Below the pieces are notes generated by a model. The model worked only from the letters and a program-made list of their open reading frames with translations. It was not told the DNA's origin and did not search any database. A stretch of 64,000 nt of DNA from Micromonospora sp. NBC_01813 (GTDB taxonomy: Bacteria; Actinomycetota; Actinomycetes; Mycobacteriales; Micromonosporaceae), in NCBI RefSeq assembly GCF_035917335.1, contig NZ_CP109067.1:6881001-6945000 (forward strand). The letters run 5' to 3'. The translations under genes and the position numbers were made by a program. This document shows positions 17,124 through 39,811 of the stretch, in pieces. Each line of letters begins with the position of its first letter. Position 1 is the stretch's first letter.

Positions 17124-17873
17124 ATGCCCGGCGGACGGCTGACCTATCAGGACCGGCAGCGGATCGAGCAGGCGCTCGCCGCCGGCACCGGATACGCGGA
17201 GATAGCCCGTGAACTGGGGCGGCCGACCTCGACGATCAGCCGCGAGGTCGGCCGCAACGGCGGGCCGGGTGGCTACCGCGCCACCGCCGCGCATCGGGCC
17301 ACCGTGCACCGGGCCCGTCGCACCGGCCCGATCGCCCGCCCGCCGGTCGAAGAATCCATCGGGTACGGGCGGGACCCGGCCGCCGTCCGGGACTTCGAGC
17401 AGCAGTTCGTCGCGATGATGGTGCAGTCGGGATTTCCCCGGATGACCGCCCGGGTGCTGGTCAGCCTCTTCGTCAGCGACAGCGGCTCGCTCACCGCCGC
17501 CGACCTGGTCGCCCGGCTGCGGGTGAGCCCGGCATCGGTCTCGAAGTCGATCGTCTTCCTGGAACGGATCGGCTTCGTCACCCGGCAGCGGCCGCCCGGT
17601 CAGCGCCGCGACCGGTACGCCGTTGACGAGGGCCTGTGGTACCGCGCCTGGTCGTTGCGGGTCCGCGTCTTCCAGACCTGGGCGGACGCCGCGGCCCAGG
17701 GCGCGGCGGTGCTCGGCGTCGACACCCCGGCCGGCGACCGGCTGCAGTTGATGGGCGAGTTCTTCGGTCTGGTCGTCAGCGACGTCGAGCGGATCACCGC
17801 CGACTGGCAGGCGTTCCTGTCCGCCCGTGCCGCCAACGCCAACGCCACTGCCAACGCCGCCGGGCAGCTATGA
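17124..17873 (+). CDS. MarR/GbsR-type regulator with IS30-like HTH at its N-terminus
   Basis: The 249-residue protein has two DNA-binding parts. Residues about 5-50 (LTYQDRQRIEQALAAGTGYA, then EIARELGRPTSTISREVGRN) look like the HTH of IS30-type transposases. Residues about 85-220 form a GbsR/MarR-like winged helix (SLTAADLVARLRVSPASVSK, then SIVFLERIGFVTRQ). The ATG at 17124 follows GAGAGG at good spacing; a GTG at 17115 is an alternative. It probably represses the divergent ABC exporter and itself through the GTTGCAA sites. Confidence 0.8.
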   Translation: MPGGRLTYQDRQRIEQALAAGTGYAEIARELGRPTSTISREVGRNGGPGGYRATAAHRATVHRARRTGPIARPPVEESIGYGRDPAAVRDFEQQFVAMMVQSGFPRMTARVLVSLFVSDSGSLTAADLVARLRVSPASVSKSIVFLERIGFVTRQRPPGQRRDRYAVDEGLWYRAWSLRVRVFQTWADAAAQGAAVLGVDTPAGDRLQLMGEFFGLVVSDVERITADWQAFLSARAANANATANAAGQL

Positions 17874-17897
17874 GGGACGGCACTTCCGTTCCACCGG

Positions 17898-17933
17898 TAT
17901 GCCGCTCCGGCATGTTCATGCCGGAGCGGCATA
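17898..17933. terminator. Bidirectional terminator hairpin
   Basis: Perfect 16-base arms (TATGCCGCTCCGGCAT and its complement) surround a GTTC loop. It lies between the convergent MarR/GbsR-type gene (stop 17873) and lipoprotein gene (stop 17975). There is no U-tract, as is common in actinobacteria. Confidence 0.8.
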
Positions 17934-17974
17934 TCCCCTGAAGGGTGTGCACCGGGTCGCCCGCAGGCGGCTCA

Positions 17975-18541
17975 CTAGCAGGCGGCGGCGATGATCACCC
18001 TGTCCCCGGCCAGCGTTCCGCTGAATTCGAGGTACGACTGGGAGTGGGTGGTGATGACCGTCCCGGTGAAGGCGGACGTCGTACCGTCGGCATGTTCCAC
18101 CGTCCCGGTCGCGTCGATCGGAGTGTCCGACGGCTTGCCGGTCGCGCTGAGCTCGACCGCGACGTACCGGGGCTCACCGACGTCCGGGAAGTGGTTGCGG
18201 GCGGTGACGACAAATGTGCCGCTGCCGTCGTCGGCTTCGGCGCAGACCGCGGTGTCGGTCCGGTCGGAGAAGATGGTGGCGACGTCGTCGGTGATGTTGA
18301 TCAACACCGGAGTGCCGGCGGCGCCGCTGTCCTCGGACGAGCCGCCGGACGAAGTTCCGTCGGTGCCGGACGACTCCGCGCCGGTCGATCCGGCGTCCGG
18401 CGCGCTCTGCCCGCCCGCTCCGATGTCGTCGATCCGGTCGGCGACGTCGGCGCCGCAGCCGGTCAGGGTGATCGCAGCACCGACCAGCACCGCCAGTGCC
18501 ACGCCGCTCAGTTTGCGGGAAGAAACGGTGGTCACTCGCAT
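17975..18541 (-). CDS. Secreted lipoprotein, lipoprotein antigen-like, unknown function
   Basis: The 188-residue protein has a signal peptide ending in the lipobox LTGC (GAAITLTGCGAD), then a Ser/Gly/Asp-rich linker (residues about 40-75). A beta-rich domain follows (VAVELSATGKPSDTPIDATG, then TSAFTGTVITTHSQSYLEFS) with two cysteines, one at the very C-terminus. The start is an ATG at 18541. The stop of the upstream lipoprotein gene overlaps it by ten bases, so the two are co-translated. The style resembles actinobacterial surface lipoproteins of the LppX/MPB83-like kind, but I do not recognise the family. Confidence 0.75.
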   Translation of the reverse strand: MRVTTVSSRKLSGVALAVLVGAAITLTGCGADVADRIDDIGAGGQSAPDAGSTGAESSGTDGTSSGGSSEDSGAAGTPVLINITDDVATIFSDRTDTAVCAEADDGSGTFVVTARNHFPDVGEPRYVAVELSATGKPSDTPIDATGTVEHADGTTSAFTGTVITTHSQSYLEFSGTLAGDRVIIAAAC

Positions 18542-18966
18542 GTGGTCCGGCCACCCTCCGGGTACTCCAGGATCAGGGTCTCGCCCTCCTCCAGCACCGC
18601 CTTGCCACTCAGGCAGTCGATCATGCCGTCGAAGCTGGCGCTGCCGTCGCTGAAGGTGATGACAGCGGTCTGACCGTCGATGGTGAAGCCCTCGACGTCG
18701 GTCAGCGTGTCGGCGACGACCTCGATCCGGGTCTCGAAGTCGAGCGAGTCGACCCAGTCGCTGTCCGACGAAGCTTCCCCGGTTGCGCCCGGAGCGGCTG
18801 CGCCGAGCGCGTCGGCGGCGGCCGACGCCCCGTCGGAAGCGGCGGTGGTCGTGGCGTCGGTGCCGCCGCACGCGGCCGCACCAGCGGCGAGAAGCAGGGC
18901 CGAAAAGGCTCCGGCGGCGATCCGCCGGGCGCGGCCGGGCAGGTTGGTACGGGCTGAAGCTGTGAT
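18532..18966 (-). CDS. Small secreted (lipo)protein with apparent ATC start codon
   Basis: The frame encodes about 144 residues: a basic N-terminus (ARTNLPGRARR), a hydrophobic stretch (AAGAFSALLLAAGAAAC), a low-complexity linker and a folded C-terminal part. That part includes FTIDGQTAVITFSDGSASFD and ends EEGETLILEYPEGGRTTCE. In-frame TGA lies just upstream, and no ATG, GTG or TTG precedes the signal peptide. A perfect AGGAG sits seven bases before an ATC at 18966-18964, so translation probably starts there (a CTG further in is the alternative). The lipobox-like AAAC is weak. The same gene layout and style as the overlapping lipoprotein suggest a paired secreted system. Confidence 0.6.
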   Translation of the reverse strand: MTASARTNLPGRARRIAAGAFSALLLAAGAAACGGTDATTTAASDGASAAADALGAAAPGATGEASSDSDWVDSLDFETRIEVVADTLTDVEGFTIDGQTAVITFSDGSASFDGMIDCLSGKAVLEEGETLILEYPEGGRTTCE

Positions 18967-19082
18967 GGCGGCGCTCCTGGCTCATGATCTTCAACGTGGT
19001 CGGGTCGGCAGCGTAGGTCGGCGACGGCTACGGTCGCCATGGGTCGAATCCACCTAACCTGCCCGGGCGACGCCGTCACCGG

Positions 19083-21791
19083 ATGAGGGCCGGCCGGCCA
19101 CGTCCGGCTGATCGGTACCCTCCCCAGGTGGTGGAGAAAAGCGAGGTCATCGGCCGGTCGACCGACCTCGACCAGATGCTGCGGGGGCTTGAGTCGGGCG
19201 ACGGCACCACCACCGCGGTAGTGGTCACCGGGGCGGCCGGGCTCGGCAAGACCCGGCTGCTGACCGAGATCCGGCAGGTGCTGACCGCCCGGGGGACCCC
19301 GGTCCTTGTCGTCGCCGGCAGCGCGTCGGCACCGGAGGTGCCGCTCGGTGCGTTCGCCTTCGCCCTGCCCGAACCGGACGAGCCGGCAGCCGGTGACCCG
19401 CCGACCATCCGGCTGATCCGACGACTCGGCCAGGAGTACGCCGACGGGGTCCTGCTCGTCGATGACGTCGACCGCCTCGACCGCGCCTCCCTGGTGATCG
19501 TCGGCCAACTGCTGCACCGGGGCCGCCCCCAGCTGATCCTCACCGCCCGCCGGTTCGCCGACCTGCCGCCGATGGTCACCCGGCACTACGACGCCGGCCG
19601 GTGCGTCGCGCACCCACTCAGGCCGTTGACCGGCGACCAGACCCGGCAACTCGCCGAAGACACCATCGGCGGCCCGATCACCCCCGACGCGCTGGCGCTG
19701 CTCGCCGCACACACCGCCGGCAACCCGCTGCACATCCGGGAACTGCTGCACTGGTCGCGGCGCGGCGGCGCGTTGGTCCGCACCGACCACGGCTGGGACT
19801 TCCACGGCCGACCCGAGCCCGGCCAGCGGCTGACCGACCTCATCGGCGCGGTCTTCGACAACCTGCCCCCGGCCGATCAGCAGATCCTGGAGACGATCGC
19901 GTTGGCCGGGCTGCTGCCAACCGCCGCGTTCGCGGAGCAGACCGTCGACCGGCTGGAACGCCGCGGCCTGGTGGCCGTGGTCGGAGCCGACGACGAACAG
20001 ATCAGGCTGGCTCACCCGTTGCACGCCGAAGTACTGCGCGGCCGGATCGGCCCGGACCGGGCCCGGCGGCTCAACCGGCGGGCGGTACGGCTGCTGGAAC
20101 CGGCCGGCGACCAGCGACACCTCTGGTACCGCCGGATGCTGTTGCTGGCCGACCTCGGTGAGCCGCTGTGCGCCGACGACGTGGTACGCGCCGGTGAGCT
20201 GGCGTTGACCGGTGACGACCCCCGGCAGGCGCTGGCCTTCGTGGCGGCTCTCGACCCTGCCGCCGAGCCGTCCAGCCAGGTGTGGCGGATCCGGGGGGCC
20301 GCGTACTCGGCGCTGGGCCGGGTGACCGAGGCGGACCAGGCGTTGCGCACGGCGCTCGACCGGGCCGACCGGCGCGACTGCGGCCAGGCCGGTGCCGCGG
20401 CCCGTGCCCTGGCTGCCCACCTGGCGACCCGCCGGATGGATCCGGGGGCAGCGGTCGCGGTGCTCGCCGGCCAGGTGGCCGACTGCGCCGACCCGGCCGA
20501 GCGGAGCCGGCTCGAACACGACCTCGTCCGCTGGGGGATGGTCGCCGGTCTCACCGTCATGCTGCCGCCGCTGCCGGCGGCGGCCGACGAGGAAACGTAC
20601 CGGCATGCGCTGGTGATGCGGCTGCTGGCCAGCGCCATCACCGGACCGTTGCCGCAGGCGGTCGGCTACCGCGAACAGGCCGCGCAGGCCGGTGTGGACG
20701 GTGCTTCGACGACCGGGCAGCTGGTCCGGCTCGCCGACATCATGCTCGCCTGCTACGACGGTCGGGTCGCGGACGGGCTGGCGTACGCCCGGCGGTTGAC
20801 CGCCCCGGCAGCCGCCCACGGCGGCACCGGTTCGGCCAGTAGCGGCAGCACCGAGTTGGCCAGTAGCGGTGGCGGGCAGGTGGCCGAACTCACCGGTTCC
20901 TGGGAGTTCACCGCCGGCATCATCACCATGCTCGCCGCCGATCTGCGCGACGCCCACCGGCTCGCCGGCGCCGCGATCCGCCATCTGCGTTGGCGCGACC
21001 CGATCGCCATGCTGCCGGCCGCGCTGGCCCTGCGGGCAGCGACCAGCGCCGCGCTGCGCTCCGACGCCGAGGAAGCTGCGGCCCGCGCCGCACTGCCGGC
21101 CAGCGCGGTCGCCGACCCGAAGGTGACGATGCTGTTGACCTGGGCCGACGCCCGCCGGGAGCAGGCAGCCGGCGAGCACAAGGCAGCGGCGGCCCGGCTC
21201 GCCGCCGCCGCCCGGTCGCTGCTCGACGTGCACCACGTCTTCCTGGCCGGGATGCTCGGGCACTGCGCCGCCCGGCTCGGGCACCCCGATCTGGTCGTCG
21301 ACCTGCTCGACGAGGCGCAGGCCGCCGGCCAGGCCGGGGTGCTGACCCGGTTCGCCGCGCACGCCCGGGCGGTGCGCGACCGGGACCGGGACGCGCTCGG
21401 CGGGCTGGTCGGGGTCTTCCACCGGCAGGGGATGATCACCAGTGCGGTGGACGCCGCCACGATGCTGGCCGATTGGGCCGGTCAGGACGGCAACGTGACC
21501 GCCCGGGACGGCTGGCTGCTGCAGGCCGGCCGGATCGCCGCCGACGCGACCCGGCTGGCGCTGTGGCAACAGATCCCGCGAGGCCGGCCGATCCTGACCG
21601 AGCGGGAGCGCCAGGTGGCCGAGTTGGCTGCCCGCCGGCACACTGTCCGGGAGATCGCCCAGGAGTTGGGCACGTCTCCGAGCACGATCGGTAACCAGTT
21701 GAACGCCGTCTACCGCAAGCTGGCGGTCGGTTCGCGGGCCGAGTTGGCCGCCGCGTTGGCCCGGCTGACCGCCGACCCGACGGCACACTGA
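19083..21791 (+). CDS. Large ATP-binding LuxR-family regulator (LAL type)
   Basis: The protein is about 902 residues. An AAA-type NTPase near the N-terminus has VTGAAGLGKTRLLTEI (Walker A) and GVLLVDDVDRLD (Walker B). A long helical repeat region follows, and the C-terminal LuxR helix-turn-helix is LTERERQVAELAARRHTVRE then IAQELGTSPSTI. LAL regulators activate transcription in response to a ligand. The start could be the ATG at 19083 or GTG codons near 19128 (VVEKSEVIGR); neither has a strong ribosome binding site. It is followed 64 bases later by the ThuA-like gene on the same strand, so it may control that gene and the giant genes beyond. Confidence 0.85.
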   Translation: MRAGRPRPADRYPPQVVEKSEVIGRSTDLDQMLRGLESGDGTTTAVVVTGAAGLGKTRLLTEIRQVLTARGTPVLVVAGSASAPEVPLGAFAFALPEPDEPAAGDPPTIRLIRRLGQEYADGVLLVDDVDRLDRASLVIVGQLLHRGRPQLILTARRFADLPPMVTRHYDAGRCVAHPLRPLTGDQTRQLAEDTIGGPITPDALALLAAHTAGNPLHIRELLHWSRRGGALVRTDHGWDFHGRPEPGQRLTDLIGAVFDNLPPADQQILETIALAGLLPTAAFAEQTVDRLERRGLVAVVGADDEQIRLAHPLHAEVLRGRIGPDRARRLNRRAVRLLEPAGDQRHLWYRRMLLLADLGEPLCADDVVRAGELALTGDDPRQALAFVAALDPAAEPSSQVWRIRGAAYSALGRVTEADQALRTALDRADRRDCGQAGAAARALAAHLATRRMDPGAAVAVLAGQVADCADPAERSRLEHDLVRWGMVAGLTVMLPPLPAAADEETYRHALVMRLLASAITGPLPQAVGYREQAAQAGVDGASTTGQLVRLADIMLACYDGRVADGLAYARRLTAPAAAHGGTGSASSGSTELASSGGGQVAELTGSWEFTAGIITMLAADLRDAHRLAGAAIRHLRWRDPIAMLPAALALRAATSAALRSDAEEAAARAALPASAVADPKVTMLLTWADARREQAAGEHKAAAARLAAAARSLLDVHHVFLAGMLGHCAARLGHPDLVVDLLDEAQAAGQAGVLTRFAAHARAVRDRDRDALGGLVGVFHRQGMITSAVDAATMLADWAGQDGNVTARDGWLLQAGRIAADATRLALWQQIPRGRPILTERERQVAELAARRHTVREIAQELGTSPSTIGNQLNAVYRKLAVGSRAELAAALARLTADPTAH

Positions 21792-21855
21792 GCTCACGGG
21801 GACGCTGGGTCGACTGGACATCGCGAGGACACCGACGTCGAGAGGACAGGCGAGT

Positions 21856-22698
21856 ATGGGCACCGGTCCGCGTACCGGCGACCAGCGGCGGCGGGCCGGC
21901 CTGCTCGGCTGCCTCGCGGCACTGGTGCTGCTCGGCTGCACCGGGCCCGCCGACGAGGCCGGGCAGGAGCGTCCGGGCGGCAACGGCCAGCAGTCCGGTG
22001 AGCCCGGCGAGGACGCGTACCGGGTGCTGGTCTACAGCCGGACCACCGGCTTCCGGCACGATTCGATCCCGGCCGGGGTCGCCGCCGTCGGCGAACTCGG
22101 CGCGGCGCACGGCTTCGCCGTCGACGCCACCGAGGACCCGGCCGAGTTCACCCCCGACAACCTGCGCCGGTACGCCGCCGTGATCTTCCTCAACACCAGC
22201 GGTGACGTGCTCGACGACGCCGGCCGGACGGCCTTCGAGGCGTACATCGGCGACGGAGGCGGCTTCGTCGGCGTGCACGCGGCCGCTGACACCGAGCACC
22301 ACTGGCCCTTCTACGGTGAACTGGTCGGCGCCTACTTCGCCCGCCACCCGCAGGTGCAGCCGGCCACCGTCGAGGTCGTCGACCGGACGCACCCGGCGAC
22401 CGCGCACCTGCCGGCGCGGTGGGAACGCACCGACGAGTGGTACGACTACCAGGCCGATCCGACCGGTGCGCGGATTCTCGCCACCCTCGACGAGACCAGC
22501 TACACCGGCGCCGAGATGGGGCAGCCGCACCCGCACGTCTGGTGCAAGACACACGCCGGGGGCCGCGCCTTCTACACCGGTGGCGGGCACACCATCGAGT
22601 CGTACGCCGAGCCACAGTTCCGCGCCCACCTGCTCGGCGGTATCCGCTACGCCGCAGGCCAGCTGCCCGGTGACTGCAGTTCGGCAAACTATCCATGA
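21856..22698 (+). CDS. ThuA-domain lipoprotein
   Basis: The 280-residue protein has a lipoprotein signal (CLAALVLLGCTG) and a disordered linker. The ThuA-like fold follows from about residue 54: RVLVYSRTTGFRHDSI, then VIFLNTSGDVLD, GGGFVGVHAAADTEHHWPFY, and a C-terminal HTIESYAEPQFRAHLLGGIR. ThuA domains are class-I-amidotransferase-like and occur in sugar metabolism and in extracellular carbohydrate-active proteins. The catalytic function is not established. Lipid anchoring puts it outside the membrane. It precedes the first giant gene by 83 bases. Confidence 0.85.
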   Translation: MGTGPRTGDQRRRAGLLGCLAALVLLGCTGPADEAGQERPGGNGQQSGEPGEDAYRVLVYSRTTGFRHDSIPAGVAAVGELGAAHGFAVDATEDPAEFTPDNLRRYAAVIFLNTSGDVLDDAGRTAFEAYIGDGGGFVGVHAAADTEHHWPFYGELVGAYFARHPQVQPATVEVVDRTHPATAHLPARWERTDEWYDYQADPTGARILATLDETSYTGAEMGQPHPHVWCKTHAGGRAFYTGGGHTIESYAEPQFRAHLLGGIRYAAGQLPGDCSSANYP

Positions 22699-22781: not shown

Positions 22782-25700
22782 GTGTCAGAGCCATTCCGTA
22801 CCACCTTGCACCATCTCGCCGCATCGGCCGCCACCCGGTCCGCGTCGCAACTGCCGCGCGACGCCCGGCTGGTCCACCGCCGCGACGAACGCGAGCAGCT
22901 ACTCGCCGGCAGCTTCGTCGACAGCCTCACCGGGCTCGCCCCGGCCCGCCGGATCGGCCCGCTGCGCACCCCCGGCGGGGTCGACGTCTGGTACGAGGCG
23001 TTCGTCGCCGCCCGGCGCATCCAGGTCAAGGAAGTCGGCGCCAGCGCACCGGCGTTCGTGTTCACCCAGGCCCGGCCGGCGATCGTGCAACGCACCGGCA
23101 CCGTCGTCGACATCGAGGCCGGGACGGTGTGGATCCGCGGCGACCTGTTCGGCGGCCTGCCGGCCGACGCGTACGCCGGCCTGCCGGTCACCGGCGGGAC
23201 GCTCACCCTCGGTACGGCGACGGTGCACGGCGACGTCATCGAGGTGCCCGCCCCGCTCGCCGCGGTGCTCCGGCTCGACCCGGCGCCGGATCCGGCACCG
23301 GGCGGTGCGCACGGCGGCTGCACCACCGCCGAAACCGGCACCGACCTGCCCGGCTCGGTGACGTTCCGGTTCCGGACCGGGGCGGTCGAGCTGGTCGGCG
23401 ACCCCGGCGCGGCGAAGGCGTGGGGGCAGGAGTTCCGGTTCGGCCCGGCCACCGGACGCTGGACGTTCGTCGAGCGGCTCTGGACGCTGGTGCTCGGCTA
23501 CGCCGTCGAGCCGACCCGGGTCGACGGCACCCCGATCGGCGCCGACCCGGCCGGCAACCCGCTGGTCGGCTTCGCCGGCACCGGCGCGGTCCACGACGCC
23601 GGACTCGGCCTGCCGGTGGTGGTCACCGCCGACCCGGCGATCCTCGGCGAAGCGTCCACGGCGGCGACCTGGCTGCTGCGGGTGACCGGCCTGACCGCCC
23701 GCTGGTACGCACCCGACCCGCGCGAGCACCCGCTGGACAGCGTCTGGATCGCGATCGCCGCGTCCAGCGCGACGCTGCTCGCCGACCCGGTCGCCCCGCT
23801 GGCGCCGCCGGTCGCCCATGACATCCAGTTGTGGGCGATCGCCGGCGGCGGCGGGCACCGGCTCGGCTGGCGGCAGACCTACGACGACACGTTCTGGCTG
23901 TTCTACCGCTGCCACAGCGTCGACGGCGAACACCTGATGGTGACCGGCACCAGCGAGGTGGCCCTGGACCGGCCGGTGACCACCGCCGGACACCCGGTGC
24001 CGACCCCGTCCGGGCCGGGCACGCTGCTGCTGGCCCGTCACGACGGCGAGATCACCGTGCTGCTCGGCGCGGCAGTCCCGGCGGATGCCCGCCGGCATCA
24101 TCAGTTCGCGTTGCGCAACGCGCTGCTGTGGACCACGGTCCCGGCGTTCGTCTACGTGCGGGGCACCCTCGCCGGACCGGCCGGACCGACCGCCGCCGGC
24201 CCGATGCCGATCGACAACGGCACCGCGCAGCTGGCGTTCGGCCTGCACGCCTGGGCACCGACGCTGCCCGACCCGTACGTGTCGAACGCCGCCTTGCTCC
24301 GGCCCCGGATCGGGCGGGAACCCCCGCCGGCGGCGTTGATCTGCCGGATCGTCTGGACCGCGCCAGCGGACGTGACGGTCGGGTTCGAAGGCCAGCTCGG
24401 TGCCGAGTTGGCGATCACCGGTCGGGGGATGTCGCCGGGCACGCCACAGCGACCGCCGAAGTCCACCGGCCCGGACGTCGGGCCGACCCAGGTCGGGCAG
24501 GGCCGCATCGGCCTGGACAAGGAGGCGGGCGCGCGGTGGGACGCCGCCCGACGGCTGGAGGTGGAGCTGCGCGGCCAGCGGGTGCAGGCGGCACAGCACA
24601 CCGACACCGAGTCCGTCGTCATGATCGACCGTTACCTGTCCGAGGTGCTGGGACCGCCGCCGAACCTGCTGCTGCTGGACGTCTCCACCAACCAGGACCT
24701 GCTCGGCGTCGGGCTCGGGGTGGGCCACAACCGTCCGGGCGTCGCGGCAGGCTCCCATCATTCGGGCGGTGCCGTCGGCCTAGCCGGCGCCGGTGGCTTC
24801 ACCGTCGCCGGACTGGCCACCCAGACCGAGGTCGCCGCGCTGCGGGTGCTGGCGCTGCCGCAGGTGCAGTGGGAACCGGTCCGCACCCTCGACGCGGACC
24901 AGGACATCGCCACCCTCGGACTGTTCCCCACGCCGCTCGCCTCGGCCACCGACGGCGGTGCCACCCAGCTCGGTGCCCGCTCGCAGCGGCTGGTGCCGGT
25001 GGTGCCCGCCGACGCGGTCGCCGGCACCCTCGCCGCGTTCGGCGACGGCACCCCGGTCGGGGTGCGGACCACGTTCCCGTTCGGACTGATCGCGGCGGTG
25101 ACGGTGCAGCCGTACGACAGTGGGCCGCGCCCGGCCGACCAGCTCGGGCTGACCCGGCCCGAGTTCGACGACGCCCTCGGCGGCATCCAGATCACCGCGC
25201 ACGCCGAAGGCGGCCGGCCGGACGGCGGCGGCGTGTCGGCGACCTTCGCCGGCCGGATGCGGCAGCTGATCAACGGTGTCGAGCTGCCCACCGGGGATCC
25301 GGTCGGGCTGTCGGTGCTCGGCTCCGTCGCCGACCCGGCCGGCTCCGTCGAGGCGATCTTCAACAGCGACATGGCGGCCGACCCACGGGTGCCGGTGACC
25401 CGAATCGACCTGTCCGGCTACGGCGCCAGCAACTTCAGCGACTGGAACAACCCGTTCGCCGCGTTCTCCGCCACCGCCAAGGTGCAGTTCCGGGTGATGG
25501 GTGGCCGGACCGCGATGGAGATCATCAAGGTCAACACGGTGCTGCATCCGTGGGGGATCCGGGTGACCCGCTCGGTCACCGTCGAACGCCGCCCCGGTGG
25601 CGGCGTGATCCGCCGCGACAGCGGCTGGCAGGCCTTCACCCCCGGACTGTTCGACTACCGGTACGCGCGTACCGACGGCACCATCGCCGTCGCCCCGTAC

Positions 25701-27479
25701 GTCTTCGACGCCGGGGTGTTCCGGGGCCTGTTCGACGTCCGCTCGATCCGGCCGGCACCGGGCGCGGTGTTCGGCCACGGCGCAACCCAACTGGTGCCGT
25801 ACCACTTCGATGCCGACCTGGCCCTCGACGGCGCCGCCGGGACGACCCCGGCGGCCGGGGTGCTCGGCTGGCTGCAGTTGGCCCCCAGCAACGACCCGGC
25901 CGGCGCGGACGCGTTGCGTGCGTTGATCGAGGCCCAGGGTCCGATCGGCGGGCCGATCGACACGCACCTCGACGTCGGCGGCAGTGGTCTGCCGATGCGT
26001 GCCCAGCGGGTCGAGGTCGGGCTCGCCGACGACGCCGGTGCTTCGGTGTTCGTGGCGACGGTGCGCGGCACCCCGCAGCTGCCGACGACCGGATCCTGGT
26101 CGATGGTGGTCCGGCCGGTCGCCGGCGCGCCGCCCGGTGGCGGCGAGGCGACCTCGGTCGCGGACAGCCGCGGCACGCCGTTGATCCGCCGCTACCCGGT
26201 CGTCTACCCGGCCAACACCGACGTGATCACCGTGCCGCCGCTGGCCGGCGCGCCGGGGGAGTACCGCTTCGCCGACGCCGCCGACCTGCTGCGCCCGACG
26301 GACCCGGCCAACGAGTACGCCTTCGTGCAGTCCACCCCGACGCACGCGTTCCTGTTTCCCCGGCCGGTGGTGCCGGCGCCCGGGGTGCCGAAGGTCGAGT
26401 CGCGGCACCGGCCGGCACTGGCCGACATCCTGGCCCGGTCAAGCTCCAAAGGGGCGTTCCCACCGCCGGCCAACACGTTGGAGACCGCGCCGGGCGCGCT
26501 GCACCTGGATGTCGGCCCGGCCGGCACACTGGCGTTCAGCGCCCCGGTGACGTTCACCAATCCGCCGACGCAGCTGCGGCTGGCCGGCACCGTCGGGCAC
26601 GGGTCCAACCTGCGCTACGACAGCGCGACGCTGCGCCTGGAGGTCACCGAGGACCGCTGGTCGGCGGACTTCGCCGGGCTGCGGATCTGGACCGACGTCG
26701 CGGGCATGGTAGCGCTCACCGGTTCGGAGCTGCACATCGTCGGCGGGACCGACCAGCGGCCACAGATCGCGCAACTGCGTTCGCTGCTGCTGGCCGAGAT
26801 CGAGGAGATTCTGCGCTACCTGCCGTTCATCGGTGACCGGGGAGTGCAGGGCCCGATCGATCTGGGTGCGGCCAACGCCAAACACGAGGTCAAGTTCGAG
26901 GCGAAGACGATCGTCAAGTTCCCGAAGTCGGTGCTTCCGCTCGGCGACTACTTCAACCTGACGTTGTCGCTGGGTGCCAGCGCCGGCGTCGATCTGGCCA
27001 CCGGCGGCCCGAAGGCGTCCGGCAGCTTCGGTGTCGAGCTCGAAGGCCGGATTCCGGTGCTGTCGGTCGGCGTCGTCGAGGTCTTCGTCATCGTCAGCGG
27101 CAAGATCACCTTCACCATCACGTCGGTCTCCGGGACGGTCACCTCGGAACTGCTGGAACTGATCGCGTTCGTCGGGGTCGGGGTGCGCGGCACCATCGGC
27201 GGTTTCAAGGCGTACGCCTTCCTCGGCATCGGGTTCGTGCTCACCTACGACGCGGTCTCCGACACCACCAAGTACGGCGGACTGGTCGCCCTGGAAGCCG
27301 GGGTGGAGATCCTCGCCATCGTCAAGGTCAAGATCCGGGCCGAGCTGAAAGGCCTGGTGTACGACGACGCCGGCACCACCAAGTGCGACTACTCCGGCTC
27401 GGTCAAGATCCAGGTCGATCTGTTCCTGATCATCTCGATCAGCGCGTCCTACCAGGTCTCCGACACGGCGACCCTCTGA
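22782..27479 (+). CDS. Giant protein of unknown function, 1565 residues (first of pair)
   Basis: I do not recognise this family. The GTG at 22782 follows GAGGAGGAG at ideal spacing (protein begins VSEPFRTTLHHLAA). There is no signal peptide and no clear transmembrane helix. The protein looks almost entirely beta-rich: short strands, Gly/Asp/Pro turns, FWLFYRCHSVDGEH and several W-containing segments in the first 700 residues. The last 250 residues differ. They hold long runs of alternating polar and hydrophobic residues (SVGVVEVFVIVSGKITFTIT, then FVGVGVRGTIGGFKAYAFLG and VDLFLIISISASYQV), as in membrane-inserting beta-hairpins or a beta-barrel. The next giant gene follows after 27 bases. A large assembly, toxin or adhesin is conceivable; none is shown. 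Confidence 0.85.
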   Translation: MSEPFRTTLHHLAASAATRSASQLPRDARLVHRRDEREQLLAGSFVDSLTGLAPARRIGPLRTPGGVDVWYEAFVAARRIQVKEVGASAPAFVFTQARPAIVQRTGTVVDIEAGTVWIRGDLFGGLPADAYAGLPVTGGTLTLGTATVHGDVIEVPAPLAAVLRLDPAPDPAPGGAHGGCTTAETGTDLPGSVTFRFRTGAVELVGDPGAAKAWGQEFRFGPATGRWTFVERLWTLVLGYAVEPTRVDGTPIGADPAGNPLVGFAGTGAVHDAGLGLPVVVTADPAILGEASTAATWLLRVTGLTARWYAPDPREHPLDSVWIAIAASSATLLADPVAPLAPPVAHDIQLWAIAGGGGHRLGWRQTYDDTFWLFYRCHSVDGEHLMVTGTSEVALDRPVTTAGHPVPTPSGPGTLLLARHDGEITVLLGAAVPADARRHHQFALRNALLWTTVPAFVYVRGTLAGPAGPTAAGPMPIDNGTAQLAFGLHAWAPTLPDPYVSNAALLRPRIGREPPPAALICRIVWTAPADVTVGFEGQLGAELAITGRGMSPGTPQRPPKSTGPDVGPTQVGQGRIGLDKEAGARWDAARRLEVELRGQRVQAAQHTDTESVVMIDRYLSEVLGPPPNLLLLDVSTNQDLLGVGLGVGHNRPGVAAGSHHSGGAVGLAGAGGFTVAGLATQTEVAALRVLALPQVQWEPVRTLDADQDIATLGLFPTPLASATDGGATQLGARSQRLVPVVPADAVAGTLAAFGDGTPVGVRTTFPFGLIAAVTVQPYDSGPRPADQLGLTRPEFDDALGGIQITAHAEGGRPDGGGVSATFAGRMRQLINGVELPTGDPVGLSVLGSVADPAGSVEAIFNSDMAADPRVPVTRIDLSGYGASNFSDWNNPFAAFSATAKVQFRVMGGRTAMEIIKVNTVLHPWGIRVTRSVTVERRPGGGVIRRDSGWQAFTPGLFDYRYARTDGTIAVAPYVFDAGVFRGLFDVRSIRPAPGAVFGHGATQLVPYHFDADLALDGAAGTTPAAGVLGWLQLAPSNDPAGADALRALIEAQGPIGGPIDTHLDVGGSGLPMRAQRVEVGLADDAGASVFVATVRGTPQLPTTGSWSMVVRPVAGAPPGGGEATSVADSRGTPLIRRYPVVYPANTDVITVPPLAGAPGEYRFADAADLLRPTDPANEYAFVQSTPTHAFLFPRPVVPAPGVPKVESRHRPALADILARSSSKGAFPPPANTLETAPGALHLDVGPAGTLAFSAPVTFTNPPTQLRLAGTVGHGSNLRYDSATLRLEVTEDRWSADFAGLRIWTDVAGMVALTGSELHIVGGTDQRPQIAQLRSLLLAEIEEILRYLPFIGDRGVQGPIDLGAANAKHEVKFEAKTIVKFPKSVLPLGDYFNLTLSLGASAGVDLATGGPKASGSFGVELEGRIPVLSVGVVEVFVIVSGKITFTITSVSGTVTSELLELIAFVGVGVRGTIGGFKAYAFLGIGFVLTYDAVSDTTKYGGLVALEAGVEILAIVKVKIRAELKGLVYDDAGTTKCDYSGSVKIQVDLFLIISISASYQVSDTATL

Positions 27480-27506
27480 CCCACCGGTCGACAATAGGAG
27501 ACGGAC

Positions 27507-30500
27507 ATGGCCACGCCACACAAGCTCACCCTGGTGCCGTACCTGCAGCGGTGGGACCACACCAGCCGGACCCTCACCGTACGGCTGCTGATCGCCCCGG
27601 CCGCCGACCCGCTCGCGCCGCTGCTGCCCGCACCGGCCGGCGTGCCGGCGTTCGCCGACGCCAAGCTCGCCTTCGCGGCGTCCATCTCGGACACCGTGCT
27701 GGCGCTGCCGCAACGCGACCGGGTCGACCAGACGGCGATCCTGCCCGCCGCCCCGGACACCCGGCACGCGCCGCACGCCCGGGAGATCTTCACCGCGATC
27801 GGCGAGGCCTTGGCGATCCCCGCCGGCCCGGCCGGTGACACGTTCGCCCCGCAGCAGCGCGACGTCACCCGGCAACTGCGCAAGTATCTGCCCGGCAGCT
27901 ACCGCCGGTCGTTCGGGTTCGTCCGCCCGCGTACCTCCCTGGCGGTCACCGACGCCAGCTACCACTGCCTGATGAAATGCCCGCCGGACCCGGCCCCGCC
28001 AGCGGCGCCGAACGTCATCGGCTGGGGCGAGGCGATCGCGTACGCGCTGCGCCGACCCCGGCTGGCCGAAGCACTCGGGCTCGTCGTCACCCTCGACGTA
28101 CCAGTCGACGCCGACCCCCGACTGGCCGCCGGTGGCTGGCTCTGGGTCGACCTCGCCGCGCACAGCGACTACGCCGACCAGGTCGCCGCCGACCCGGCGC
28201 TGCTGCGGGCCTTCGCCACCCGGGTGCCGCCGCTGCCCACCGACGGCACCCGGCCCGTCTTCACGCCGGTGGCGTTCCCGGTCTCCGCCGACGCCACCGA
28301 GGCCGCCACCCTCGGCAACTACGACAAGGTCTTCGCCGAGGCGCTGCGCTTCGACGACGGCTTCGCCAAGATCGTGCACGCCCGGCAGCCGGTCAGCTCC
28401 GACCCGCTCGACGAGGCCGGCGACGGCGCGCCGATCGCCCGCGACGAAGGCATCCAACTCGGCTGGGACGACGAGGACATCCTCGAAGGGCAGAACCGGG
28501 CCCTCGGCGCCCCACCCGACGGTGAGGACCCGGTGCTCGCCCCGCGCGGCGTCCTCGGCTACCGGGTCGACGTACGCCCGGCCGGCGGCCCCGACTGGAC
28601 CTCCCTGTCGCTGGTCGACGCCCCGCTGAACATCGGCGTCGACCTGGGCGTGGCCCGTGAGGAACGCTGGAGCGAGGTCGCCCCGGCCGAACACAGCGGC
28701 CAGCTGTGGCTGCCCGCCTGGTTCGTCCGCTGGCGCGGCGGATCACTCGTCGTCGACACCGACGACGAGCAGCGGCTGATGGAGGTGCCGGCCGGCACCC
28801 CGGAGGAAGCGGTCCCGGTCGACGCCGACACGGTGGCGCCCCGCTACGGCCAGTCGTACGAGTTCCGGGTCCGCCTCGCCGACCCGACCGGCGGCGGCCC
28901 GGAGCTGATCACCGACCCGGTCCGCACCGGCGAGGCACCGACCGCGCTGCTGCACCTGCGCCGACACCGGCCGCCGGCCCGGCTGCAACTCGACCCGTTC
29001 ACCCCCGAACCGGACGGCACCCTGGCTGCGCTGCGGGCGCACCGGCCCCGGCTCGGCTACCCGGAGGCGGTGTACGCCGCCGGCCCCGCCGCCCGCGCCG
29101 ACCTGCTCGCCCAGATCGCCGCCAACGCCGCCGGACCGCCCGAAGCGGCGGCGGTGCCGAGCATCGCCGACCCGGACACCGCGCTGCTGCAGATCCGACT
29201 GCTGCTCAAGGCACCCGCGTTCGACCCGGCGGCCGACGCCGACGGGTACGTCGACTGGTACACCACCACCCGACTGTTCCCCGACGACGTGTCCGCCGCG
29301 CTCGACCTCACGCTGTCCTGGGTGGACGCCGCCGACTACCGGGCGGTCGACGTCACCGACCAGCTCGGCCCGGACGGGCTGGTGACCGGGCCGGTCACCG
29401 TGATCACCGGCCGCGACCTGCGACTGGAGCTGCGTGCCGTCGGCCGCGACGACCTCGGCTACTTCGGCAGCGACGCCGCCCGCTTCGGCCCCGCCGAGAT
29501 CATCGACCTGCACGGCCTGGCCGACCCGGCGGCCGAAGCCGACCTGCTGCGCCCGCTGCCGCCGGCCGACACCCTCCGGTCGGTGTTCCTGCGCCCGGAT
29601 CCCACCGGTACGCAGCTGGCGGTGCACGCCGTCGCCGCCCAGAGCGCACCCACCCCGGCGCTGCTCGGCCGGCTGGCCGGCGCACTCGACCTGGTCGCCG
29701 ACGGGTCGACGCTGCTCGGCGCACCGGGGGAGCGGGTGGTGTTCGGCTGCGCCGGGCTCGGCCACTACCTCGCCCCGGACGGCGGCACCGTCGAGTTCAC
29801 CGATCCGGCCGAGCTGGCCGGGCAGTGGCTCAACGCCGTAGCGCTGGTGGTGGACCGGGACTGGACCTGGCGGGGTGCCGGCTCGCCGACCGTGACCCTG
29901 ACCCGCACCCTCCGGCTGCCCGACGCGCCCGGCGGGGGGTCGCCGACCGTCGCCGAGGTCGGCGTGATCGAACTGGTCGACTCGGTCAACGTGCAGGCCA
30001 CCACCGGCGCCACCGACCGCGGCTTCACCCGGATGGTGTTCCTCGACGCGCTGGCGGCACCGCTCGGGCCCGACGGGCTGCCGTACGAGGTCCAGGTCGA
30101 CTACGAGGTGACCCTCCGCCTCGAAGGCGGCGATGAGGTGCGACAGACGATCTCGTCGACGCTGCCGATCGTCACCCCACCCCGGCAGGTGCCGCGCGTG
30201 GTCGCCGCCGGCATCGCGCTCACCCCGTACGGCACCGACCCGGCGTACGCGGCGACCCTGCCCCGGATCCGGCGGCTGTGGTTGGAGTTCGCCGAGCCGC
30301 TGGTCGACCCACGGGACGCCTACTTCGTCCGGCCGCTGACCGTCACCCCGGACCCGATGCTGCTGCCCGGCACCGAGCCGGTCGCCGACCCGGCCACCGT
30401 GCCGGCGCTGCCGCTGGACCCGGAACTGATCCGGACCATCACCCCCGGGCAGGTGCAGGACCTGGCCGGCTACGCCACCATGCAGCGCCTCGAACCGGCC

Positions 30501-31151
30501 GCCGACAGCGATCGGCACTTCCTGGTGCCGCTGCCGCCGAACACCGACCCGGGCTCACCGGAGCTGTTCTCGTTCTACACCTACGAGATCCGGGTCGGGC
30601 ACGACCGGGGGCCGGCCGAGGATCCACTCTGGTCCACCGCACAGGGCCGCTTCGGCGAGGCGCTCACCCTGGAGGGGGTCGCGCATCCGGCGCCCGAGCT
30701 GGTCTGCACGGTGCTCGCCGAGCCGGATGGCGCGATCGGGGTCCGGGCCCCGTACGCGACCCCGTACGTCGGGCTGCGCCGGGCGCTGCCCAACCCGCCG
30801 AACACCCAGCTGTGGGCGGTGCTGTACGCCCGGGTCGTGCAGGCCGACGCGGCCACCCGTCGCAACGTGCAGATCGACCTGCGTCGGTTGGCGATCCCAC
30901 GTCGCGGCAAGGACGACCGGTCGGTCCCGTTGCCGGTGGAGGGGGAGACGTACTGGACGGGTGCCGAGGTGCGGTCGGCACTGGCCGCCGCCGGGCTACC
31001 CGACGAACTGCCGGTCAGCGTGCTCTGCGTCGAGGTGCTGCCGGAGCCGAACGGCGGCTTCGTCGACCCGCTCGGCGGCGACCTGGGCCAGGTCCGGATC
31101 CTGCGTACGTCGCCACTGTCCGCCGTCGAGCGCGACTGCTGCGTGTCGTGA
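27507..31151 (+). CDS. Giant protein of unknown function, 1214 residues (second of pair)
   Basis: The ATG at 27507 is preceded by ATAGGAGACGG. The protein has no signal peptide or transmembrane helix and no family I can name. It begins KLTLVPYLQRWDHTSRTLTV. Beta-rich segments recur, such as WLPAWFVRWRGGSLVVDTDD and YGQSYEFRVRLADPTGGGPE, the latter reminiscent of fibronectin-type or jelly-roll strands. Near the C-terminus come YTYEIRVGHDRGPAEDPLWS and TQLWAVLYARVVQADAATRR. It ends ERDCCVS, a rare adjacent cysteine pair at the C-terminus. The tight spacing to the first giant gene and the terminator after it indicate one operon and a joint function. Confidence 0.85.
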   Translation: MATPHKLTLVPYLQRWDHTSRTLTVRLLIAPAADPLAPLLPAPAGVPAFADAKLAFAASISDTVLALPQRDRVDQTAILPAAPDTRHAPHAREIFTAIGEALAIPAGPAGDTFAPQQRDVTRQLRKYLPGSYRRSFGFVRPRTSLAVTDASYHCLMKCPPDPAPPAAPNVIGWGEAIAYALRRPRLAEALGLVVTLDVPVDADPRLAAGGWLWVDLAAHSDYADQVAADPALLRAFATRVPPLPTDGTRPVFTPVAFPVSADATEAATLGNYDKVFAEALRFDDGFAKIVHARQPVSSDPLDEAGDGAPIARDEGIQLGWDDEDILEGQNRALGAPPDGEDPVLAPRGVLGYRVDVRPAGGPDWTSLSLVDAPLNIGVDLGVAREERWSEVAPAEHSGQLWLPAWFVRWRGGSLVVDTDDEQRLMEVPAGTPEEAVPVDADTVAPRYGQSYEFRVRLADPTGGGPELITDPVRTGEAPTALLHLRRHRPPARLQLDPFTPEPDGTLAALRAHRPRLGYPEAVYAAGPAARADLLAQIAANAAGPPEAAAVPSIADPDTALLQIRLLLKAPAFDPAADADGYVDWYTTTRLFPDDVSAALDLTLSWVDAADYRAVDVTDQLGPDGLVTGPVTVITGRDLRLELRAVGRDDLGYFGSDAARFGPAEIIDLHGLADPAAEADLLRPLPPADTLRSVFLRPDPTGTQLAVHAVAAQSAPTPALLGRLAGALDLVADGSTLLGAPGERVVFGCAGLGHYLAPDGGTVEFTDPAELAGQWLNAVALVVDRDWTWRGAGSPTVTLTRTLRLPDAPGGGSPTVAEVGVIELVDSVNVQATTGATDRGFTRMVFLDALAAPLGPDGLPYEVQVDYEVTLRLEGGDEVRQTISSTLPIVTPPRQVPRVVAAGIALTPYGTDPAYAATLPRIRRLWLEFAEPLVDPRDAYFVRPLTVTPDPMLLPGTEPVADPATVPALPLDPELIRTITPGQVQDLAGYATMQRLEPAADSDRHFLVPLPPNTDPGSPELFSFYTYEIRVGHDRGPAEDPLWSTAQGRFGEALTLEGVAHPAPELVCTVLAEPDGAIGVRAPYATPYVGLRRALPNPPNTQLWAVLYARVVQADAATRRNVQIDLRRLAIPRRGKDDRSVPLPVEGETYWTGAEVRSALAAAGLPDELPVSVLCVEVLPEPNGGFVDPLGGDLGQVRILRTSPLSAVERDCCVS

Positions 31152-31181
31152 ACCCTGGCCCCCCGCAGTGGCGGTGACCAG

Positions 31182-31244
31182 GGCGGAGCTCCCCGGCCTC
31201 GGACAGTCGTCGGCGTCGACTGCCGTTGGCCGGGGAGCTCCGCC
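31182..31244. terminator. Terminator hairpin between convergent genes
   Basis: Seventeen-base perfect arms (GGCGGAGCTCCCCGGCC and its complement at 31228-31244) enclose a 29-base loop that itself has some pairing. It follows the giant-gene pair and faces the GH43 gene, so it can stop transcription from both sides. Confidence 0.75.
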
Positions 31245-31253
31245 GGCTTCTGG

Positions 31254-33017
31254 TCAGCTCGCCGTGCAGGTCACGCTCGTCGGGGGCTGACTGCCGCCGC
31301 TGGTCGATGCGATGAAACCGGCGGTGGTCGACGACCCGGCGGACAGTTGCCCGTTGTAGCTGGCGTTGGTCACCGTCACCTGGTTGCCCTGCTGGCTGAA
31401 GGTGCCGCTCCAGCCCTGCGACACGGTCTGCCCGGCGGGCAGGGTGAAGGTCACCCGCCAGCCGTTGGTGGTGGCGGTGGTGGCGTTGGTGACCGTCAGC
31501 CGGCCCTCGTAGCCGCCCTGCCAGGAGGCCGGCACCGAGACGGTGGCAGTGCAGGACGATCCCGGGGTGGGCGGCGGCGCGGTCGTCGGCGGTGCCGTGG
31601 TGGGCGGTGCGGTGGTCGGCGGTGCCGTCGTCGGCGGCGGGTTGCCGCCGGCGGAGAACTGCCACCAGTCGGCGTTGAGCAGGTAGCCGCTGCCGCCAGT
31701 GAACCGCAAGTAGAGGTCGTGGGTGCCGGACGCGCCCGTCACCGGGCAGGAGACGGTGGTCCAGGTCTGCCAGCCGCCGGTGCCTGGCACGCCGCAGCTG
31801 CCGACCTGGGTGCCGGTCGGGCCGCCGAGCCGCACCTCGATGTTGCCGCCGCTCGACCCCGACGCCACCCGGGTGGTGAACGACGTCGCGCCCGAGCCGA
31901 AGGCGACCCCCTTGACCTTGATGTAGTCGCCGTTCTCGATCCACCCGACGTTCAGGGTGCCTTCGCCGGCCGGCTCCGTCTCGATCCCGGACGACCAGGC
32001 GATCGTCTCGGCCTCCTGGCGTACGAACGGGTTGAGGGTGCCGACCTGCGGTGCGCCCGTCGTGGTCATGTTCATCGTCGGGATCGTGCCGTTGGTGTTG
32101 TAGCTGAACTTCTCCACCGCCACCGACCGGGTGTATCCGCCGCCGCCGGGCAGCGCTCCGTTGTGGTAGAAGAAGTACGAACCGCCGGCGAAGTCGATGA
32201 TGCCGGGGTGGTTGGTGAAGCTGCTGCCCTGCCTGGGCATGACGGTTCCCCGGTAGGTCCAGGGGCCGGTCGGGCCGGTGGCCGTCGAGTAGCCGATGAA
32301 CTCGGAGCAGCACTCGGCGGCGAAGACGTTGTAGTAGAGCCCGTTGCGTTTGTAGACCCAGGGCCCTTCCTCGTACAGGGTGGTCCGGGTCGCGTGCCCG
32401 GTGCGGGTGCCGAAACCGGCGGTGGTGAGCGGGATCTGGGTCGGGCTGCCGGAGAAGGAGATCATGTCGGCGTTGAGCCGGACGTACCAGAGGTTCGGGT
32501 TTCCCCAGTAGAGATACGCCTGGCCGTTGTCGTCGATGAAGGCGTGCGGGTCGATCTCGCTGTTGCCGACCAGTGGGCGGCCGAGGGCGTCCCGGAACGG
32601 GCCGGTGGGGCTGTCCGCGACGGCCACGCCGATGACCATCTGCCCGTTGGAGCGTTGGCGCACCGGGACGTACCAGTAGAACTTGCCGTTGCGTTCGATC
32701 ACGTGACCGGCCCAGGCGTTCTGGTCCGCCCAGCTGAACGTGGCCAGACTCAACGGCGAGCCGTGGTGGTTCCAGTTGACCATGTCGGCGGACGAGAACA
32801 CATGCCAGTCGTTCATGGTGAAGTACGTAGAGCCGTCCTCGTCGTGCCCGGTGTAGAGGTACACGCGTCCGTCGTGGACCAGCGGTGCCGGGTCGGCGGT
32901 GTAGATCGTCTGCACGATCGGGTTGTCGGCGTTGGCGGGGGTCGCGGTGCAGAACACGGCCACGCAGAGCAGGCTCGCGACGCTGGCGATCGCCCTTCTC
33001 AGTCTTGATCTGGTCAC
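31254..33017 (-). CDS. Secreted GH43 arabinoxylan-active glycosidase with CBM6 and CBM2
   Basis: The 587-residue protein starts at a GTG after GAGGAG. Residues 1-30 are a signal peptide ending ATPANA. The five-bladed GH43 domain (about 31-330) shows Asp42 (YTADPAPL, base), Asp156 (SEIDPHAF) and Glu217 (YEEGPW, acid). A CBM6-like domain follows (about 340-470, RQEAETIAWSSGIE, YLRFTGGSGYLLNADWWQF), then a PTTAP-repeat linker, then a C-terminal CBM2 (about 495-587, WQGGYEGRLTVTNATT). GH43 enzymes with this module order release arabinose or xylose from arabinoxylan. Two TGTTATCGATAACA-like operators lie upstream. A strong terminator follows. Confidence 0.9.
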   Translation of the reverse strand: MTRSRLRRAIASVASLLCVAVFCTATPANADNPIVQTIYTADPAPLVHDGRVYLYTGHDEDGSTYFTMNDWHVFSSADMVNWNHHGSPLSLATFSWADQNAWAGHVIERNGKFYWYVPVRQRSNGQMVIGVAVADSPTGPFRDALGRPLVGNSEIDPHAFIDDNGQAYLYWGNPNLWYVRLNADMISFSGSPTQIPLTTAGFGTRTGHATRTTLYEEGPWVYKRNGLYYNVFAAECCSEFIGYSTATGPTGPWTYRGTVMPRQGSSFTNHPGIIDFAGGSYFFYHNGALPGGGGYTRSVAVEKFSYNTNGTIPTMNMTTTGAPQVGTLNPFVRQEAETIAWSSGIETEPAGEGTLNVGWIENGDYIKVKGVAFGSGATSFTTRVASGSSGGNIEVRLGGPTGTQVGSCGVPGTGGWQTWTTVSCPVTGASGTHDLYLRFTGGSGYLLNADWWQFSAGGNPPPTTAPPTTAPPTTAPPTTAPPPTPGSSCTATVSVPASWQGGYEGRLTVTNATTATTNGWRVTFTLPAGQTVSQGWSGTFSQQGNQVTVTNASYNGQLSAGSSTTAGFIASTSGGSQPPTSVTCTAS

Positions 33018-33411: not shown

Positions 33412-34419
33412 TCAGTCCCAGGCGCGGCCGAGGGCGTGCAGCTGATCGGCGTACTCGATGCGGTCCGGCCACGACGCCGGCCAGGCCGCCATCCCGTACG
33501 CCGCGCCGACGAACGCCCCGGCCAGGCAGGCGATCGAGTCCGAGTCGCCGGCGGTGGCCGCGCCCCGAGCCAGCGCACCCACCGGATCGTCGGCGTGCCA
33601 CAGCGCGCAGAGCAGCCCGGTGGCCAGGGCCTCCTCCGCGATCCAGCCCTCCCCGGTGATCCGGCACGCGTCACCGCCATCGTCTCCGACGGCGAGCGCG
33701 GCGTCGAGCCGGTCCAGTACGGCCAGACACTCGTCCCAGCCGCGCGAGATGAAGGCGGTGGGACTGTCCACTCCGGGCCGCTGCCACAACGGGCCGAGCC
33801 ACTCGTCACGGTAGACGGTGCGCTGCCGGTGGCAATGCTCCCGTAGCAGAAGCGGCAGCGCGGCCAACGGCGTACCGGTGCGCAGCAGCCGGACCGCGAC
33901 GGCGGTCAACTCGCTCGCGGCCAGCGCCGTCGGATGTCCGTGGGTCAGCCCGGCCTGCAGCTGCGCCAGCCCGGCCACGGTGTCGTCGTCGTAGCCGGCG
34001 ACCAGGCCGACCGGTGCGACCCGCATGTTCGCCCCGCAGCCCTTCGACCCGCCCACGGTGGCCTGCTGCCACGGCACGCCGTCGGACAGCCGGCCGCAGG
34101 CCCGCAGGCAGGTCATGCCGGGTGCCCGGTTGTTGTCCGGGCTGGCCGCCCAGGCCAGGAACCGGGCCCGCAGCAGCGGCTCCAGCGTCCGCGGCGTCGC
34201 GGCCGGCGCGTCGTGCAACGCCCAGCCGACGGCAAGCGTCATCTGGGTGTCGTCGGTGACCAACGCCGGGTCGCCGACCAGCTCACGTGGGCCGGCCGGG
34301 CCGTACCGGTCGCGGATCTCGGTGAATGTCATGAACTCGGTCGGCTTGCCGAGCGCGTCGCCGTACGCCAGCCCGAACAGACACCCCGACGCCCGGTCTT
34401 CCGATGCCGTGACACCCAT
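33412..34419 (-). CDS. ADP-ribosylglycohydrolase family protein
   Basis: The 335-residue protein begins at an ATG at 34419 after GGGGAGGG. It shows the family's metal-site motifs. LFGLAYGDALGKPTEF opens the protein, LVTDDTQMTLAVGWAL is the N-terminal Mg-ligand motif, NMRVAPVGLVAGYDD lies in the middle, and AGDSDSIACLAGAFVGAAYG is the C-terminal ligand motif. Such enzymes remove ADP-ribose from modified proteins or nucleic acids, acting in the cytosol with two Mg ions. No ADP-ribosyltransferase gene is adjacent. It may be a general repair or maintenance enzyme. Confidence 0.88.
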   Translation of the reverse strand: MGVTASEDRASGCLFGLAYGDALGKPTEFMTFTEIRDRYGPAGPRELVGDPALVTDDTQMTLAVGWALHDAPAATPRTLEPLLRARFLAWAASPDNNRAPGMTCLRACGRLSDGVPWQQATVGGSKGCGANMRVAPVGLVAGYDDDTVAGLAQLQAGLTHGHPTALAASELTAVAVRLLRTGTPLAALPLLLREHCHRQRTVYRDEWLGPLWQRPGVDSPTAFISRGWDECLAVLDRLDAALAVGDDGGDACRITGEGWIAEEALATGLLCALWHADDPVGALARGAATAGDSDSIACLAGAFVGAAYGMAAWPASWPDRIEYADQLHALGRAWD

Positions 34420-34496
34420 CGCTACCCTCCCCGTTCGACCAGGTCGCAGCGTAGCCGGCGAGATCAACCTGACGCGTGTCTCCTACGCCGGCAGCG

Positions 34497-39664: not shown

Positions 39665-39811
39665 GATGATCTCTCCGATGGAGCACAAAATCTACGATGG
39701 ACAGCAATGGCGACGAAGGTCGACGGTCCCCGGACGACGACGGCAACGACCATCGTCGGACCGGACCGGACCGTCGTGGAGGGGGGGCAGCGGGCAGCGG
39801 GTGGAGCTGAC

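Follow-up and report, generated by a model that had tools for sequence, protein, structure and literature searches.

The autotransporters of type V secretion, represented by the beta-domains of BrkA, EspP and Hbp, are among the closest described counterparts of the first product of a two-gene cassette that we examined in the actinomycete Micromonospora sp. NBC_01813. The cassette, made up of two giant genes termed here A and B, lies in a stretch of 64,000 nucleotides (contig NZ_CP109067.1 of assembly GCF_035917335.1, positions 6,881,001 to 6,945,000 of the forward strand), which as a whole is called the window below. A C-terminal barrel, which in A is predicted, may be common to A and the autotransporters. 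However, the A protein of the window carries no signal peptide, some host lineages of the cassette are expected to lack an outer membrane, the A tail differs in its nine predicted strands with short turns and is 4-14% identical to the autotransporter rows listed, and A has a constant partner in a second giant protein. Because the window proteins fail a signal-peptide test, albeit a crude one, we do not class the cassette with the autotransporters. For two-partner secretion, no TpsB/POTRA or TPS-domain Pfam family was found in A and B of the window and of loci L012 (first A piece), L013, L014 and L028. Multidomain proteins of the fibronectin type III (FN3) or Ig-like kind are a further near counterpart, as are the DUF6603 proteins (PF20248). 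The latter, which 8 of 61 genomes from the host's family encode, are likewise giants of unassigned function. Our preferred interpretation, a tentative one, is that A and B form a two-gene operon, complete in itself and passed between bacteria as an accessory trait, whose products are both obligate parts of a single large protein complex.

Gene A (22782-27479, forward strand) is an open frame of 1565 amino acids with a GTG start and gene B (27507-31151, forward strand) an open frame of 1214 amino acids with an ATG start. The spacer between them is 27 bases. The two adjacent giant genes of the initial annotation are both intact where it had placed them, and purine-rich stretches lie 5' of the starts of A (GAGGAGGAG) and B (TAGGAGACGG), for which it had proposed ribosome binding sites. 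The N-terminus of A, (V)SEPFR, is identical in two genus relatives and reads (V)SEPVR in a third. When compared with four genus relatives, A has a ratio of nonsynonymous to synonymous substitution rates (dN/dS) of 0.37-0.41 and B one of 0.28-0.35; given these values and homologues that are colinear between phyla, we regard both genes as protein-coding. The window genome is a single contig of 7.63 Mb with one match each for A and B, their own genes. Two features of B stand out in the alignments. An acidic cluster, DDGF...H...RDxG...WDDE, is invariant in 9/9 B rows, and a conserved Cys followed by only 1-4 residues forms the C-terminus (window 31137-31151) in 13/13 rows, with a CC pair in 11 of the 13 though B is otherwise Cys-poor.

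A pattern-based search able to detect close relatives only was run on 84,980 species genomes and revealed six B loci, in Micromonospora endolithica and in metagenome-assembled genomes (MAGs) of Pirellula, Parvularcula, Pyrinomonadaceae, Hyphomicrobiales and Nannocystis. Their best B segments are 60-75% identical, and A lies directly upstream in all six. Plasmid records of Tistrella, Microvirga terrae and Chlorohelix also have A upstream of B, and a plasmid record of Microvirga sp. VF16 contains a B fragment only. Further loci were identified in genomes G034, G060, G305, G307, G308 and G037 and in the distant G152. By best segment the B homologues are 33-87% identical, and they span the Actinomycetota, Planctomycetota, Pseudomonadota, Acidobacteriota, Myxococcota and Chloroflexota. 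The genome-neighbourhood survey that the initial annotation had called for thus covers 18 distinct loci including the window, with A directly upstream of B and the two sequences adjoining in 17, the exception being the VF16 fragment. Neither a match to a characterised family nor homologues that occur unpaired, the two outcomes which had been named as contrary to a paired system, emerged from our searches. Both genes are open at full length in 13 of the 18 loci (intergenic gap -1 to 36 bases). Among the broken copies, to which assembly errors may contribute in part, the Tistrella locus has A split between two frames and the Hyphomicrobiales MAG has the cassette in pieces. In G152, B is open about 650 bases past the main A frame and the A tail matches weakly in another frame. 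In G308 (L032, 4479-7051) a deletion joins the front of A to the back of B in different frames, and this copy appears to be a decayed cassette within the same genus. Pairwise distances of A and B are correlated at r = 0.992 (78 pairs, 13 taxa). Comparison of the sequences supports A and B as one cassette.

Its distribution is sparse, although our large surveys limited scoring to a few top candidates in each genome and their counts are lower bounds. B was matched in 6 of 7 genomes of the genus, one being the G308 deletion remnant, and in at least 4 of 61 genomes of the family, where the A tail was found in at least 6 of 121; the A-tail profile gave one further, marginal match in G309 (E 0.095). 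At least 2 of 246 genomes sampled from the phylum carry A (the window genome and G152), and B was found in the same two. A profile of the best conserved A core (residues 690-1110; 24849-26111, forward strand), which is 39-77% identical to the window in 7 homologues, was likewise found in at least 2 of the 246, both with B as well. A candidate third B carrier in the phylum, G110, was rejected since its match is a formamidopyrimidine-DNA glycosylase. Among 345 genomes of the class the window genome alone was a true match, again a lower bound. The B tree does not follow phyla, as it groups a planctomycete with an acidobacterium, both beside the Micromonosporaceae rows. In this tree the nearest named relative of the window genome is Micromonospora, a placement on which its assignment to the family is based here. 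Of the cassettes, three complete pairs and the one fragment are on large plasmids, and several copies have transposase genes nearby. We also compared 230 neighbour frames, drawn from 17 loci, with one another; beyond the genus just six weak matches between loci resulted (26-32% identity), and no gene recurred. Since no other gene recurs there, and the LAL, ThuA and GH43 genes flanking the window copy were seen at no locus outside the genus, we delimit the cassette to A and B alone. It appears to spread as a self-contained two-gene unit and to be an accessory trait.

We scanned Pfam, NCBIfam, PHROGs, PADLOC and PDB sequences, with matches listed up to E 1. A has no match at E ≤ 1 in any of these libraries. 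B has sub-threshold matches to DUF6225 (E 0.13) and an acyl-CoA synthetase model (E 0.21) and nothing in PHROGs, PADLOC or PDB sequences, and Pfam matches were again all sub-threshold for homologues encoded by three plasmids and by a distant genome within the phylum. The PADLOC search for anti-phage defence, in which 0 models matched at E ≤ 1, covered A and B of both the window and L014. A profile search of PDB sequences returned one weak FN3con match for B (E 0.92) and chance matches for A. These results agree with the earlier claim that the proteins carry no recognisable family motif. A and B were also considered as paralogues of each other, and this was rejected (hhalign E 0.77). The same is true of DUF6603 as a relative of A or B: BLAST, HMMER and hhalign comparisons with DUF6603 giants taken from genomes of the family show no relation (hhalign probability 0.7% and 0.07%; E 0.077), and PF20248 has no Pfam match in A or B and none in the whole window genome. 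DUF6603 giants of up to about 1900 amino acids were seen at L053 and L055 (G031 and G048) and also at L052 (G003), where they adjoin other genes that are conserved between two of those genomes. Among the papers searched we found none that uses the term DUF6603, none on the A-B pair in titles and abstract openings, and none for six protein accessions of the plasmid homologues. No known family or system was found for the cassette by the searches run, while a remote known relative could still emerge from deep profile-profile search.

The predicted folds are most informative for the A tail. AlphaFold models were made for A residues 366-1565 and B residues 1-1200 from an input of only six sequences. 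The C-terminal amphipathic beta-meander of A (residues ~1369-1547; 26886-27422, forward strand) is predicted to have nine strands with short turns and a fold like an outer-membrane beta-barrel. The 50 matches that VIA-align listed for it are, by title, all outer-membrane-type barrels; no lipocalin or fatty-acid-binding barrel is among those 50, which does not exclude one. In B, a possible FN3/Ig-like beta-sandwich (residues ~487-670; 28965-29516, forward strand) is followed by a possible Ig-like beta-sandwich (residues ~772-888; 29820-30170, forward strand). The initial annotation's picture of fully folded, beta-rich proteins is thus upheld for the A tail and weakly for parts of B, and the remaining AlphaFold models are poor. 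Its claim that signal peptides are absent is borne out for the window proteins by inspection and by hydropathy, a crude test based on the best 10-residue value within the first 45 residues: the maxima are 0.69 for A and 1.69, at residue 23, for B. Three N-termini among 13 homologous pairs are more hydrophobic (L013 B 2.33, L003 A 2.11, L002 A 1.91). That membrane helices are absent, as was also claimed, needs caution; the top 19-residue hydropathy of A, 2.01 at residue 1424, falls within a predicted beta-strand stretch.

If A and B are subunits of one complex, they would bind each other, and it is because they co-diverge so closely that we retain, as an inference, the multi-part structure suggested in the initial annotation; its more specific proposals of a surface fibre, a shell or a toxin were not established. 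The A tail, on a medium-confidence model, probably folds as an amphipathic outer-membrane-type beta-barrel, and the putative beta-sandwich domains of B may provide a scaffold or binding surface. We speculate that assembly of the complex takes place in the cytoplasm, and that a membrane or hydrophobic target is then entered, or contacted from outside, by the A tail. Microbial conflict would be the likeliest use, a conjecture prompted by a trait that is mobile, patchy and several times damaged.

Several observations weigh against this proposal. The presence of B in 6 of 7 genus genomes also fits a stable genus trait, and no direct tie to conflict, including any PADLOC match, was found. The Micromonosporaceae envelope is not known to have an outer membrane, and with no signal peptide, no outer membrane to be expected and no secretion gene accompanying the cassette, the route of the barrel to a membrane is unexplained. 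The modelled parts of A (366-1565) and B (1-1200) have mean predicted local distance difference test (pLDDT) scores of 36.9 and 44.1, respectively, Foldseek gave no PDB match for A at E ≤ 0.001 (best 3.3e-3), and amphipathic meanders may be over-modelled as barrels. Finally, the hydrophobic face of the A tail is conserved like the polar face (0.75 vs 0.74, p 0.70, 9 rows), which is unlike freely lipid-facing residues and does not decide between a membrane barrel and a soluble one.

The conserved hydrophobic face leads to the strongest alternative, a possible though somewhat doubtful one, in which A and B form a complex that is soluble in the cytoplasm and acts as a carrier or an enzyme: the A tail would be a soluble barrel whose hydrophobic interior holds a lipid-like or apolar ligand, and the A core together with the B acidic cluster would form the binding or active site. 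In addition to the equal conservation of the two faces and the invariance of the acidic cluster, this would suit window proteins without a signal peptide and a cassette found in phyla both with and without an outer membrane, as their envelope types are generally understood. However, the listed VIA-align matches are uniformly of the outer-membrane type, and no enzyme family rose above the cut-off. In a bolder version of the complex that we prefer, which we consider doubtful, the cassette would encode a new class of mobile two-protein nanostructure, present in six or more phyla, some of which have outer membranes and some not, and the outer-membrane-type barrel of a giant cytoplasmic protein would enter a membrane with neither a signal peptide nor any known machinery for its assembly.

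A fibre of the cell surface or matrix, with B as a chain of FN3/Ig-like domains, A as the anchoring barrel and both exported without a signal peptide, seems unlikely. B of the five loci scanned has no FN3 match in Pfam at E ≤ 1, the window proteins lack signal peptides, no export gene is common to the loci, and the host is not known to have an outer membrane in which to anchor the barrel. We consider it very improbable that the two proteins serve a contractile injection system, with its genes at another site in the genome, as cargo or tip. Of 9 genomes examined, 6 have a match to the sheath family PF17482, among them 4 of the 6 in which both genes are open, but the window genome (G000) and G034 have an open pair and no sheath match, and no such gene was found among the annotated or scanned neighbours. 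Least credible of all is a phage remnant or cargo with A and B as virion parts, for although the poor B model best matches a multi-domain FN3 phage protein in a viral library (E 2.6e-5, root-mean-square deviation 51) and the cassette on the Chlorohelix plasmid is flanked by a Bro-N gene, 50,697 phage records contain no A or B match, three scans of IMG/VR contigs gave no confirmed relative, the window proteins have no PHROG and no phage structural gene was seen among the neighbours.

The surroundings of the cassette vary. A very stable hairpin follows B (31175-31256, forward strand; minimum free energy -75.6 kcal/mol, z -5.27), and none of 200 shuffles was equally stable. Of the strong terminator described in the initial annotation, the strong hairpin is confirmed, but it lacks a T-run and is missing from the output of the terminator scan; it is possibly a two-way transcription stop facing the convergent GH43 gene (31254-33017). 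A LAL regulator (19083-21791) and a ThuA protein gene (21856-22698) precede A on the same strand, just as had been described. The LAL gene, however, is not part of the cassette: no frame in the surroundings of the other loci matches it, and the stretch 17830-21885 that includes it is missing at the corresponding place in two genus relatives and appears to be a local insertion, or a loss in those relatives. ThuA and the GH43 gene were seen at the cassette within the genus only. Downstream in the window are genes for an ADP-ribosylglycohydrolase (33412-34467) and an RtcB ligase (38465-39688), which have matches in two genus relatives (L031 and L032) but none at the loci of other genera. Plasmid flanks contain toxin-antitoxin genes (L012), transposases (L013, L014) and a type I-D CRISPR cluster (L014); catalase-type genes flank the L012 and L014 copies, and no theme is common to the flanks of L012, L013 and L014.

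Taken together, nearly 2,800 conserved residues that co-diverge, are paired in six phyla and are unnamed by any family library searched make up a well-bounded problem. If the A tail is a true barrel, the cassette raises the question of how a membrane-type barrel is made and used without a signal peptide or an outer membrane. Since the cassette consists of just two genes, its function would be directly testable by deletion or co-expression.
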